Below, one piece after another: positions 2,617-6,160 of a stretch of 64,000 nt of DNA. The DNA is from an uncultured Lachnospiraceae bacterium (GTDB lineage Bacteria > Bacillota > Clostridia > Lachnospirales > Lachnospiraceae): contig ONNQ01000004.1 in NCBI GenBank assembly GCA_900319245.1, positions 62,001-126,000 of the forward strand, read 5' to 3'. A model generated the notes under the pieces. It was not told the origin of the DNA and made no database searches. It worked only from the letters and a program-made list of their open reading frames with translations. Each line of letters starts with the position of its first letter. Positions within the stretch are counted from its first letter, which is position 1. The position numbers and the translations under genes are program-made.

Positions 2617-4215
2617 ATGGGAAAACCGACAGGATTTCTGGAATATCAAAGAGTAAATAATGTTGACAGGCAGCCTCTGGAGAGACTGTCGGACTATCTG
2701 GAGTTTCACCTGCCGCTTGGCGATGAGGAGAGAAGGGAGCAGGGGGCGCGCTGCATGAACTGCGGCGTTCCCATGTGCCAGAGTGCGATGAAGCTCTCCG
2801 GGATGGTCACGGGGTGTCCCCTTCACAATATGATCCCGGAGTGGAACGACCAGGTATATCTGGACCACCCCAGGCACGCGCTGTCCAGACTTCTTAAGAC
2901 CAGCAACTTCCCGGAGTTCACCGGGCGGGTTTGCCCGGCACTCTGCGAAAAGGCCTGTATCTGCGGGATGAACGGCGAGCCGGTCACGATCCACGACAAC
3001 GAACTCTATATCATTGAGACGGCATTCAGGAACGGATGGATGACGCCGAGAATCCCGTTGCACAGAAGCGGCAAGAGAGTTGCTGTCATCGGCAGCGGGC
3101 CTTCCGGCCTTGCGACAGCGGATCAGCTCAATCACAGGGGGCATCATGTGACGGTCTTTGAGCGGGAGGACCGGATCGGCGGGCTTCTCATGTACGGAAT
3201 TCCCAACATGAAGCTGGATAAGTCCGTGATAGAGAGGCGCAGGAAGCTCATGGAGGCGGAAGGCGTGACCTTCCGGACCGGCGTCAACGTGGAAGGCGCC
3301 ATCGCGGCAGAGATTATGGACACCTATGACGCGGTCGTACTTGCCTGCGGTGCCAAAAGACCGAGACCCCTCTCCGTTGCCATCACCGAGACGGCAGGCG
3401 ACAAGATACCCCAGAGGTCGGAAAACGACAAGGTCCCCCAGAGTTCAGATAACGACAAGCTACCCCAGAGGTCAGCCGACCAAGATAACGACAAGCTACC
3501 CCAGAGGTCAGCCGACCAGGTCCCCGGCGTCTACTTTGCTGTGGACTACCTCACACAGAGCACTAAAAGAGTTCTGAGCGGCAGCAAAAACCGGCGCGGC
3601 GACGCAAAAGGAAAACATGTTGTGATCGTCGGCGGCGGAGATACCGGCAACGACTGTATTGGAACCGTTCTGCGACAAGGGTGTGCCAGTGTGACGGCAC
3701 TGGAGATGATGCCGGCGCCGCCCGTGGTCAGAGCGGAAGCAAATCCCTGGCCTGAATGGCCCAAAGTCCTCAAGACCGATTACGGCCACCAGGAAGCGAT
3801 TGCCAGATTCGGCCATGATCCGCGTGTATTTGGGACAACTGTCAAAGAACTGATCTTGAGAAAAGGCAAACTCTGGAAGATCAGGACCGTGGAAGTCCAC
3901 TTTGAAAATGGCAAGCTTGTCGAGACAGAGGGGACGGAAAAGGTCATCCCTTGCGGCCTGCTCCTGATTGCAGCCGGATTTCTTGGGTGCGAGCCCTATA
4001 CGGCAGAGGCTTTCGGCGTACATCTGACGGCGCGAGGCAACGTGGAGACCAAGGAGGGACCCGACCACTACAGAACGAATGTGGACAAAGTATTCACGGC
4101 AGGCGACATGCACAGAGGACAGTCCCTGGTGGTGTGGAACGTCGTGGAAGGCAGAGGATGCGCGAGGGAAGTTGATGAATTCCTGATGGGATACACATCG
4201 CTGCGCGAGCAGTAA
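2617..4215 (+). CDS. gltD: Glutamate synthase small subunit (NAD(P)H) with inserted DKLPQRS repeats
   Basis: Electron-donating small subunit of glutamate synthase, passing electrons from NAD(P)H through FAD and Fe-S clusters to GltB. The start at 2617 is chosen because AGAGGTG lies just upstream and MGKPTGFLEYQR is the family's usual N-terminus; the longer frame from 2554 would translate the repetitive spacer. N-terminal cysteine motifs (CMNCGVPMC, CPALCEKACICG) bind Fe-S. A GxGxxG FAD motif (VIGSGPSGLATA) and an NADPH motif (IVGGGDTGNDC) follow. Oddly, between the conserved RPRPL and VPGVYFAVDYL there is an extra segment of about 40 residues made of four DKLPQRS-like units, which the family normally lacks. 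At 532 residues the protein is longer than the usual 480-495. Confidence 0.95.
   Translation: MGKPTGFLEYQRVNNVDRQPLERLSDYLEFHLPLGDEERREQGARCMNCGVPMCQSAMKLSGMVTGCPLHNMIPEWNDQVYLDHPRHALSRLLKTSNFPEFTGRVCPALCEKACICGMNGEPVTIHDNELYIIETAFRNGWMTPRIPLHRSGKRVAVIGSGPSGLATADQLNHRGHHVTVFEREDRIGGLLMYGIPNMKLDKSVIERRRKLMEAEGVTFRTGVNVEGAIAAEIMDTYDAVVLACGAKRPRPLSVAITETAGDKIPQRSENDKVPQSSDNDKLPQRSADQDNDKLPQRSADQVPGVYFAVDYLTQSTKRVLSGSKNRRGDAKGKHVVIVGGGDTGNDCIGTVLRQGCASVTALEMMPAPPVVRAEANPWPEWPKVLKTDYGHQEAIARFGHDPRVFGTTVKELILRKGKLWKIRTVEVHFENGKLVETEGTEKVIPCGLLLIAAGFLGCEPYTAEAFGVHLTARGNVETKEGPDHYRTNVDKVFTAGDMHRGQSLVVWNVVEGRGCAREVDEFLMGYTSLREQ
3400..3519 (+). repeat. Four in-frame DKLPQRS-encoding repeat units inside gltD
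   Basis: Units begin at 3400, 3427, 3454 and 3490, so the spacings are 27, 27 and 36 bases, all multiples of three. The core DNA is GACAAGCTACCCCAGAGGTC with some drift in the first two units; the last two are identical over about 28 bases. They translate as [21 protein letters not shown] and DKLPQRS, and sit in a loop where related GltD proteins have about a dozen residues. The same core occurs in pyrG and as a hairpin at 11610-11660. Confidence 0.9.
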
Positions 4216-4231
4216 ATGAATCGTAGATGCG

Positions 4232-4281
4232 GCACAGCCCGGCGGGTTCCTATACCACCGGGCTGCGTCGGTGTGTTTTGG
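4232..4281 (+). terminator. Possible terminator after gltD
   Basis: CACAGCCCGGCGG pairs imperfectly with CCACCGGGCTGCG across a short loop. The following T-run (GTGTGTTTTGG) is weak, so termination may be partial. Confidence 0.4.
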
Positions 4282-4332
4282 CAGAGTGTAAGAAGTCAGT
4301 GAAAAGCGCTCGGGAAAAAGACTTTGAATAGG

Positions 4333-4492
4333 CGCTTCGACAAGGAGGGAAAGAGTGAAAAATCACTCTGATGAGCTGATTTTTCACTCACAAGGTTTGT
4401 GCCAAAGCGCCACAAACCTTGGGGATCGCATCGGCGAATTTGAGATTCGCCTCGCGTGTCTTCGCGCAAAGCGCTTCGACAAGGAGGGAAAG
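4333..4492 (+). promoter_or_regulatory. pyrG leader: duplicated ribosome-binding segment enclosing several hairpins
   Basis: The string GCGCTTCGACAAGGAGGGAAAG occurs twice (from about 4333 and from about 4471, written here as two halves GCGCTTCGACAAGG and AGGGAAAG). Only the second copy leads directly into the pyrG ATG at 4493. Between them are at least three inverted repeats: GAGTGAAAAATCA with TGATTTTTCACTC, AAGGTTTGTG with CACAAACCTT, and GCGAAT with ATTCGC. The first copy could start a decoy frame, which is in phase with pyrG from 4355. The layout suggests translational or attenuation control, or tandem duplication filled with palindromes. The CTP-dependent pyrG attenuator of Bacillus is not recognisable. 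Confidence 0.6.
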
Positions 4493-6160
4493 ATGACCAA
4501 ATATGTATTTGTGACCGGAGGCGTTGTTTCCGGCCTGGGAAAGGGGATCACGGCGGCTTCTCTGGGAAGGCTGCTCAAGGCCCGCGGCTATAAAGTGACC
4601 ATGCAGAAGTTTGACCCCTATCTGAATTTGGATCCGGGCACGATGAACCCCATGCAGCACGGGGAAGTCTTCGTGACCGACGACGGAACGGAGACAGATC
4701 TGGATCTTGGCCACTATGAGCGGTTTATCGACGAGAGTCTGGACCACAATTCCAACGTGACCTCGGGCAAAATATACTGGTCCGTCCTCAATAAAGAGCG
4801 CCGGGGCGATTACGGCGGCGGAACCGTGCAGGTCATCCCCCATGTGACCAATGAGATCAAGAGCCGGTTTTATGTGGAACCGCAGAGTTCGAGCGATGAC
4901 AAACTACCCCAGAGGTCGAACGTGAGCGACAAACTACCCCAGAGGTCGGATACCTCCATCGCGATCATCGAGGTGGGCGGCACAGTCGGAGATATCGAAT
5001 CGCAGCCCATCTATGAGGCAATCCGCCAGTTCATGCAGGAAAAGCCCCAGGGCACCTGCTGCATGATCCACGTGACACTGATGCCTTACCTGCACGGGTC
5101 GGAGGAACTCAAGACCAAACCCACCCAGGCCAGTGTTCGCGAACTGCAGAGGATGGGAATCCGTGCGGATATTATTGTGTGCAGGTCCGAGTATGAGATC
5201 CCGCAGGCCATGCGGGACAAGATCGCTCTGTTTTGCAATGTCCCGGTTACCCATGTTCTGCAGAATCTCAATGCCTCCTCGATCTACGAGGTCCCGCTCA
5301 TGATGGAAGAGGAGCATCTGGCCGAGGCGGTCTGCGACTGTCTGCGGATTCCCTGCCCGGAGCCGGATCTCTCCGACTGGAAGCGGATCGTGCACGCAAT
5401 GCAGAACCCCAAAGTAAAAGTGACGATCGCGCTTGTCGGAAAATACACACAGCTCCACGACTCCTATCTGAGCGTCGTCGAGGCGCTCAACCACGGCGGC
5501 TTCTCCAATGACGCGCAAGTGAAGATCCGCTGGGTGGATTCCGAGGAACTTGAAAAGGAACCGGAGAGATTGGACGAAGTATTCTATGGGATTGACGGTA
5601 TGATCATCCCCGGCGGCTTTGGAAACCGCGGCACAGAGGGCATGATCCTGGCTGCGCAGTATGCGAGAACGAAAGGAATCCCCTTCCTAGGGATCTGCCT
5701 GGGCATGCAGATGGCACTGGTCGAATTTGCCAGAAATGTGGTAGGCTGGAAAGACGCAAATAGTTCGGAGCTGGATCCGGAGACCACCCATCCGGTCATC
5801 GACCTGATGCCGGAGCAGGCTGGCGTCACGCAGCTGGGAGGGACCATGCGCCTTGGCGCGTATCCCTGTAAACTTGTAAGAGGGACGCTGGCGCACAGGC
5901 TGTTCGGCAGGGAAGAGATTCAGGAGAGGCACCGCCACCGCTATGAAGTGAACAACGAGCTGCGGGAGCAGCTGGCAGCCGCCGGACTGACCTTTTCCGG
6001 CATCTCACCGGACGGCCGGATCGTAGAAATGATTGAATGGAACCGGCATCCATATTATATTGGAACACAGGGACACCCCGAATTTAAGTCCAGGCCCAAC
6101 CGCGCGCATCCGCTCTTTGCGGGTCTTGTGATGGCGGCAGTGAGCCGGAAAGTAAAGTGA
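4493..6160 (+). CDS. pyrG: CTP synthase with inserted DKLPQRS repeats
   Basis: Converts UTP, ATP and glutamine to CTP. The start at 4493 gives the standard N-terminus [18 protein letters not shown] and has AGGAGGG six bases upstream; the longer frame from 4355 runs through leader hairpins. The synthetase half carries the P-loop and [11 protein letters not shown]; the C-terminal class I amidotransferase half shows [11 protein letters not shown], the nucleophile motif GICLGMQ and the terminal HPEFKSRP. At 555 residues it is about 20 longer than the usual 535. The excess is two ten-residue DKLPQRS units between NEIKSRFY and IAIIEVGG. That loop joins two strands of the synthetase domain, so an insertion there might be tolerated. 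Confidence 0.97.
4898..4957 (+). repeat. Two in-frame DKLPQRS-encoding repeat units inside pyrG
   Basis: Two copies of GACAAACTACCCCAGAGGTC start at 4898 and 4928, exactly 30 bases apart, encoding [10 protein letters not shown] and [10 protein letters not shown]. The core differs from the gltD copies only in the third base of a lysine or leucine codon. CTP synthases of known sequence have about 8 to 10 residues in this loop; here there are about 30. Confidence 0.9.

Follow-up and report, generated by a model that had tools for sequence, protein, structure and literature searches.

A probable REP-type repeat family of a Lachnospiraceae genus, associated with one clade of RAYT-like transposases and read in frame within housekeeping enzymes

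The 64,000-nucleotide stretch of DNA analyzed here (the window; positions 62,001–126,000 of contig ONNQ01000004.1) comes from the genome of an uncultured Lachnospiraceae bacterium (G000 below) and contains a short repeat whose core of about 20 bases occurs four times in gltD and twice in pyrG. The repeat probably represents a repetitive extragenic palindromic (REP)-type family of one Lachnospiraceae genus, linked to REP-associated tyrosine transposases (RAYTs), with single arms residing in protein genes and with local duplication by nicking and slippage. One clade of RAYT-like genes lies adjacent to the repeat, and copy numbers are high in genomes in which this clade is present; from this we infer that the transposase moves inverted pairs of the repeat.

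In the window, eight matches to GACAARYTRCCCCAGAGGTC occur at ≤3 mismatches, as compared with a mean of 0.03 in 100 shuffled sequences. A preliminary description of the window, made from its letters alone, had reported the copies in gltD and pyrG and had overlooked a degenerate copy in gltB and an intergenic inverted pair. The copies, the associated duplications, and the host genes are as follows, with G010 denoting another genome of the comparison.

3400..3419, plus strand: gltD copy 1, peptide DKIPQRS (1 mismatch to the pattern; DKVPQRS in the G010 allele)
3427..3446, plus strand: gltD copy 2, peptide DKVPQSS (3 mismatches to the pattern)
3454..3473, plus strand: gltD copy 3, peptide DKLPQRS
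3490..3509, plus strand: gltD copy 4, peptide DKLPQRS
3447..3518, plus strand: exact 36-bp tandem duplication with gltD copies 3 and 4 (units 3447–3482 and 3483–3518, each stopping 9 bases past the core)
4898..4917, plus strand: pyrG copy 1, peptide DKLPQRS
4928..4947, plus strand: pyrG copy 2, peptide DKLPQRS
4898..4927, plus strand: 30 bp present in the window pyrG and missing from the G010 pyrG allele (gap position set by the alignment)
1668..1687, minus strand: degenerate copy in gltB, antisense to the gene, read TSGVPC
11610..11659, arms 11610–11629 minus and 11640–11659 plus: intergenic inverted pair, a REPIN-like hairpin
10..2484, plus strand: host gene gltB (frame as listed; true start probably upstream of the window)
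2554..4215, plus strand: host gene gltD (Pfam Fer4_20 and Pyr_redox_2; likely true start 2620)
4493..6160, plus strand: host gene pyrG, CTP synthase (Pfam CTP_synth_N, seen on the near-identical orthologue L078)

The first of these host genes we take to be gltB from its protein sequence and its position ahead of gltD; no Pfam scan lies behind the name. Start-to-start spacings are 27, 27, and 36 in gltD and 30 in pyrG, every one a multiple of three, and all six copies in these two genes have codon phase 0. The earlier claim of a single reading frame kept by spacings divisible by three is therefore borne out for these genes. Third codon positions are mostly alike among the six copies. The preliminary description had also proposed that the repeat spread as DNA and is small and possibly mobile, and both points are supported.

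The search of the whole genome and of relatives that had been proposed found many further copies. In the window's own genome, the repeat is present at 16 places at ≤2 mismatches, none of them outside contigs C32 and C62 (of 80 contigs), and a second pattern matched 25 places, 24 of them on C32 or C62 and the other, a weak match, on C39. A scan of 62 genomes of the genus at ≤1 mismatch gave at least one match in 27 and at least five in 15, with single matches per genome being at about the level of a reversed-pattern control. Six genomes hold 128–229 matches, the upper value being the maximum. In contrast to these numbers, matches were found in only two members of a family-wide sample (397 genomes, 334 genera), namely the own genome and, among the other 396, one genome with a single match. 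An exact scan of genome contigs gave matches in at least 115 stretches, and 80 loci were taken from it for counts of copies, hairpins, and neighbors. One of these loci is labeled Desulfobacteraceae and two are from isolates named Oribacterium (L074 and L106), which have between them one hairpin pair and one single core copy; the remainder are labeled Lachnospiraceae. The match on the contig labeled as a Desulfobacteraceae metagenome-assembled genome (L087, 229–248) is a single exact core, for which chance, contamination, or transfer are possible.

The 80 loci contain 631 copies, and the commonest arrangement of neighbors is an inverted pair, found 109 times at an offset of 32 and 33 times at an offset of 50. 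The consensus sequences define two classes of hairpin (about 50 and 68 bp) that have common ends and differ in their centers, and a weakly T-rich tail accompanies the inverted pairs. A representative hairpin folded as DNA had an energy of −28.6 kcal/mol (z −12.8). The tetranucleotide GTAG or GTGG is present in 503 of the 631 copies and in 258 of 286 hairpin arms. Single copies and direct tandem copies are frequent as well. An empty site was sought for the intergenic pairs, and the clearest case (L424 versus L432) reads as a deletion with a remnant rather than as proof of insertion.

Transposases of the Y1 family (Pfam Y1_Tnp, above cut-off) were matched in 44 of the 62 genus genomes. Forty of the more divergent hits, 138–339 amino acids in length as read, were fetched with their surroundings; at least four others (G026:C113, G039:C283, G054:C113, and G056:C144) were left out. 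Seventeen of the 40 genes (249–339 amino acids) have the repeat at a distance of about 300 bp or less, and 11 of these are flanked by it on either side, the most distant of the flanking copies being 379 bp away. No repeat was found within 300 bp of the other 23, some of whose stretches are cut by contig ends. In a maximum-likelihood tree, all 17 repeat-adjacent genes fall inside one clade of 18 (support 98/95). A relative at least 57% identical to one RAYT query from this clade is present in 12 of the 62 genomes, the next best being 50% identical (the cut was chosen after the list was seen). These 12 genomes have 2, 7, 21, 24, 26, 47, 128, 164, 165, 171, 206, and 229 copies of the repeat, as compared with 0–18 in the 50 genomes without such a RAYT (Mann-Whitney p 4.9e-9). 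H-x-H and Y-I-H-x-N-P motifs are visible by eye in the protein; a search of the PDB gave no match to the RAYT-like protein. Given the RAYT association, a Rickettsia-type element lacking a transposase was dropped as a candidate. In one genome, G020, we observed 38 Y1_Tnp matches, the listed ones being mostly short frames of ~100–200 amino acids that correspond to an IS200-type expansion; this genome has one match to the repeat, which is at the control level.

The repeat also varies in copy number locally. Copy number differs between orthologous RAYT loci from related genomes, among which several pairs are 95–98% alike, and the extra units share the local 3' flank. Between neighboring direct copies, the fraction of matching bases is 0.58–0.77 at offsets 0–7 past the core (control 0.25–0.40) and drops to 0.47, 0.42, and 0.39 at offsets 8, 9, and 10. 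We determined the hazard of exact likeness ending at each base for 118 de-duplicated pairs, pre-selected for at least 5 common bases and retained from 218 once periods under 11 and repeated flanks were removed. The hazard is 0.10–0.14 at bases 5–7, rises to 0.22, 0.38, and 0.46 at bases 8, 9, and 10, and is 0.06–0.19 at bases 11–15. With one pair per locus (53 pairs), the peak is still at 9–10, with few pairs remaining beyond it. The border is seen both with (62 pairs) and without (56 pairs) an inverted partner nearby. The 5' borders of the tandem units, on the other side, vary. Copies that are not duplicated (188 hairpin arms and 212 single copies) have a bias for G at +1 and for T at +3 and +4. 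Judged from these sequences, the near-constant 3' border looks like the trace of a cut 8–10 bases past the core that would have been followed by slip-back synthesis, with the cut and its enzyme both being putative. The border may be a new feature; among the open-licence papers that our searches listed, we recognized none dealing with this repeat or with a constant border between tandem units.

The following mechanism would connect these observations. The intact unit is the inverted pair, a REPIN-like hairpin that would be moved by its cognate RAYT. Single arms are also found in protein genes, where, to judge from the spacing, an insertion or a change in length would survive only if it kept the frame. 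The RAYT or another nuclease would nick single-stranded DNA 8–10 bases past the core, and the freed 3' end would then slip back and be re-extended, the point of slippage often being a C-rich stretch with microhomology to the CCCC of the core. In the window, the outcome would be the four-copy loop of GltD and the two-copy loop of PyrG.

It is quite plausible, on the other hand, that the REP family is real and that its duplications arise through ordinary replication slippage or template switching at microhomology between the CC of the flank and the CCCC of the core, with no role for a RAYT and with the constant distance reflecting the geometry of the polymerase. The duplicated flanks are rich in C at +8 to +10, short units of 13–19 bp are common, and duplications also occur without an inverted partner nearby. 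In addition, the window's genome, in which no cognate RAYT was found, differs from G010 in copy number nonetheless. Pure microhomology, however, predicts borders at any CC, whereas the observed hazard peaks at +9 and +10, and the modest C bias of unduplicated copies at about +8 to +10 fits a preference in cut site.

The window's closest alleles show the same kind of length difference. The allele on contig C227 of G010 has one 36-bp unit in gltD, where the window has two, and one copy in pyrG, where the window has two (a difference of 30 bp). The earlier suggestion of slippage-type amplification is supported insofar as the duplication is local. Contigs were compared through 20 stretches per genome and the window. 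Contigs C133 and C227 of G010 match C32 at 95–99.8% over most of the aligned length, apart from two short pieces at 83 and 91%, and the single other matching G010 contig is 84.7% identical; C133 and C227 may therefore come from the window's own species. That pattern, together with the restriction of repeats to two contigs of G000 (bar one weak match), could be taken to mean that C32 and C62 are foreign to the genome through a binning error, or that tandem numbers reflect errors of assembly. We consider such an artefact unlikely. The same genes carry inserts in several genomes, the two isolates named Oribacterium contribute one hairpin pair and one single core copy, and the tetranucleotide composition of C32 agrees with that of the rest of G000 (window distance 0.066). 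A chimeric C32 was accordingly set aside as unsupported by composition. A separate observation concerns C62, whose first 20,000 bases (G000:C62:1-20000, L339) have a GC fraction of 0.431, as compared with 0.49–0.545 in other stretches, and a large composition distance; this stretch is possibly foreign DNA.

Within proteins, the inserts examined occupy loops, linkers, or N-terminal tails, which agrees with the loop-tolerated position anticipated in the preliminary description. Pfam scans of 39 selected reading frames placed inserts within or between domains of CarB (two linkers), DNA polymerase IV, MurT, a TP_methylase-HEM4 fusion, an Oxidored_FMN/Pyr_redox protein, a DUF4153 protein, and others. 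The remaining scanned frames either lack a Pfam match or have the copy close to the N-terminus, in a part of the frame where the start codon is uncertain. Of 57 spacings in verified genes, 52 are multiples of three, as opposed to 47 of 172 outside open frames; the five exceptions, which look like loose or overlapping matches, were left in the count. GltD, PyrG, and CarB were each aligned over 30 loci (for GltD, 30 of 62 matching genomes; for PyrG, 30 of 54). Most of the 30 aligned GltD and PyrG homologues are without the insert, instead of all having it, and the CarB linker is empty in many of the 30 relatives. Between a filled (G050) and an empty (G053) CarB, the difference is 33 nt for one copy.

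The preliminary description had further supposed a usual frame encoding a soluble peptide, and this part does not stand. The antisense reading TSGVVC is the commonest in verified genes, followed by the sense reading QTTPEV and then by DKLPQRS (orthologues were counted more than once, making these phase and frame counts pseudo-replicated). The frame also differs among relatives at the same place in PyrG and CarB. TSGVVC and QTTPEV occur in PyrG of G041 at the location of DKLPQRS in the window, and both orientations are present within one linker of CarB in G016. GltB has TSGV-frame copies in the window, G010, G007, G016, and G041, those of G007, G016, and G041 being at the same loop as in the window, and G016 has TPEV too. 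MurT uses the frame that contains a stop (GTAG), with the last G altered, as read from the flank. A single preferred frame is ruled out by these three readings and by the mixed frames in the same loops. With three or more frames and both orientations in use for the same DNA, the peptide is best regarded as incidental to the spread of that DNA.

Retention of inserts at the same positions of CarB, GltB, and PyrG in several species would also be expected if the peptides had been selected for enzyme function, as adaptive loops, with the likeness of the DNA being secondary. We regard this as very unlikely, as relatives have unrelated peptides from other frames in the same loop, near-identical alleles differ in copy number, and intergenic hairpins hold the same DNA; the insert is, moreover, modeled as a coil of very low confidence, by a weak model. 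That model of GltD, which used 20 of 28 full-length rows and reached a mean pLDDT of 62, places the insert within a coil stretch (residues 262–295) with pLDDT <50, which lends mild support to a loop position. Other species of the genus (L260, L264, L276, and L277) have unrelated low-complexity expansions, rich in Lys/Gln/Glu or in Ser, in the GltD loop, making this loop a hot spot of length variation in general. Least likely of all is a DNA uptake sequence, with inverted pairs as terminators and with biased transformation, of the kind known from Neisseria or Haemophilus, gathering single copies in genes: the weakly T-rich tail of inverted pairs, the use of several frames, and the restriction to the genus in our sample would suit it, but copies are added residues (the 33 nt of the empty and filled CarB site) rather than point changes, and they form tandem arrays and are tied to one RAYT clade.

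Several observations weigh against a RAYT-mobilized REP-type family. GTAG is paired within a long stem (23 bp) with no unpaired 5' foot, and a folded in-gene copy has an energy of −2.9 kcal/mol, lacking the hairpin thought to be needed for RAYT recognition. Around isolated hairpins (90 of 150 pairs), direct repeats of 2–10 bases are not above the level in shuffled flanks, that is, there is no target-site duplication; the 8–10 bases common to tandem units are consequently not footprints of whole-pair insertion. The loci compared included no clean case of a whole pair newly inserted. The NCBIfam RAYT model NF047646 gave 63.8 and 65.8 bits, under its cut-off of 80. Neither the window's own genome (87% complete) nor G010 (71% complete) yielded a cognate RAYT, and activity in this strain may therefore be past; G042 (10 copies) and G049 (8 copies) are also without a RAYT of the clade. 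Copies in G000 sit in C32:33-83 kb and C62:10-21 kb, except for the weak match on C39, and genome-wide transposition does not account for this clustering. The clustering could stem from local spread, from transfer, or from RAYT loss. The six repeat-richest genomes (G008, G038, G045, G048, G050, and G058) have no insert in GltD and PyrG, while the same six do have the CarB insert. The C bias of unduplicated copies is modest (0.29–0.46 at about +8 to +10, versus 0.11–0.30 from +12 on), and copy-number differences rest on draft assemblies, mostly metagenomic.

If the REP-type family does duplicate by nicking and slippage, a broader role can be put forward tentatively. A domesticated transposase might act as a local mutator of protein length, with the REP core marking a nick 8–10 bases downstream and nick-and-slip synthesis adding or removing in-frame blocks in loops of essential enzymes. 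This would yield loop-length polymorphism in GltB, GltD, PyrG, and CarB, with no single preferred frame. Near-identical gene copies do encode enzymes that differ in loop length. Repeated natural insertion of one DNA, in frame and in at least three frames, into essential enzymes provides a ready-made set of tolerated insertion sites. The border footprint, for its part, marks the place at which new copies originate and makes a testable prediction of the cut position.

Outside the repeat, the window has a 23-base direct repeat, GCGCTTCGACAAGGAGGGAAAGA, at 4332–4354 and 4471–4493, located around a short inverted-repeat stretch just upstream of pyrG.

The closest kin of the repeat are the REP and REPIN sequences of Pseudomonas fluorescens SBW25 and Escherichia coli with their cognate RAYTs. 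Likenesses are a short, palindromic, high-copy repeat, inverted pairs forming hairpins, a GT[AG]G motif, the occurrence of singlets and tandem clusters, the position of repeats beside the RAYT gene, and the correspondence of one RAYT clade to one repeat. In published work, REPINs, singlets, and tandem clusters are described (PMC3116915), as are RAYT genes flanked by REPs (PMC2817692). RAYTs are reported to cut REPs in vitro, the known ones cutting single-stranded DNA near the REP at CT and one also at CA, and the spread of REPs is described there as poorly understood (PMC8266576). The border footprint bears on how REP repeats multiply. The family described here differs in having GTAG inside a paired stem, many unpaired tandem copies inside protein genes, tandem units with a near-constant 3' border, and a Lachnospiraceae genus as host.

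Rickettsia palindromic elements, the parallel drawn in the preliminary description, are similar in being inserted in frame in genes of known function, a likeness drawn from description. That part of the parallel holds, while the association with a RAYT clade sets the present repeat apart and makes REP/REPIN sequences the nearer relatives. Small dispersed repeats of Nostoc are likewise very short and mobile-looking. Intragenic REPs of the GTAG and CGTC types, as in Opitutus terrae, Rickettsia conorii, and Thauera, are also read in frame in known proteins; they have other sequences and hosts, and the present repeat is distinguished by several frames per loop, length differences between alleles, and the border footprint. 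PMC3733652 describes such in-frame REPs, found in these species and others, as contributing 20–30 residues (43–82 in clusters) and proposes that their peptides are linkers or loops. Its Table 1 assigns Rickettsia RPE-4 and RPE-6 to CGTC families and gives a transposase association for GTAG and not for CGTC. In-frame intragenic REPs are therefore already known, and the repeat of the window is of a known kind, a REP/RAYT-type family.

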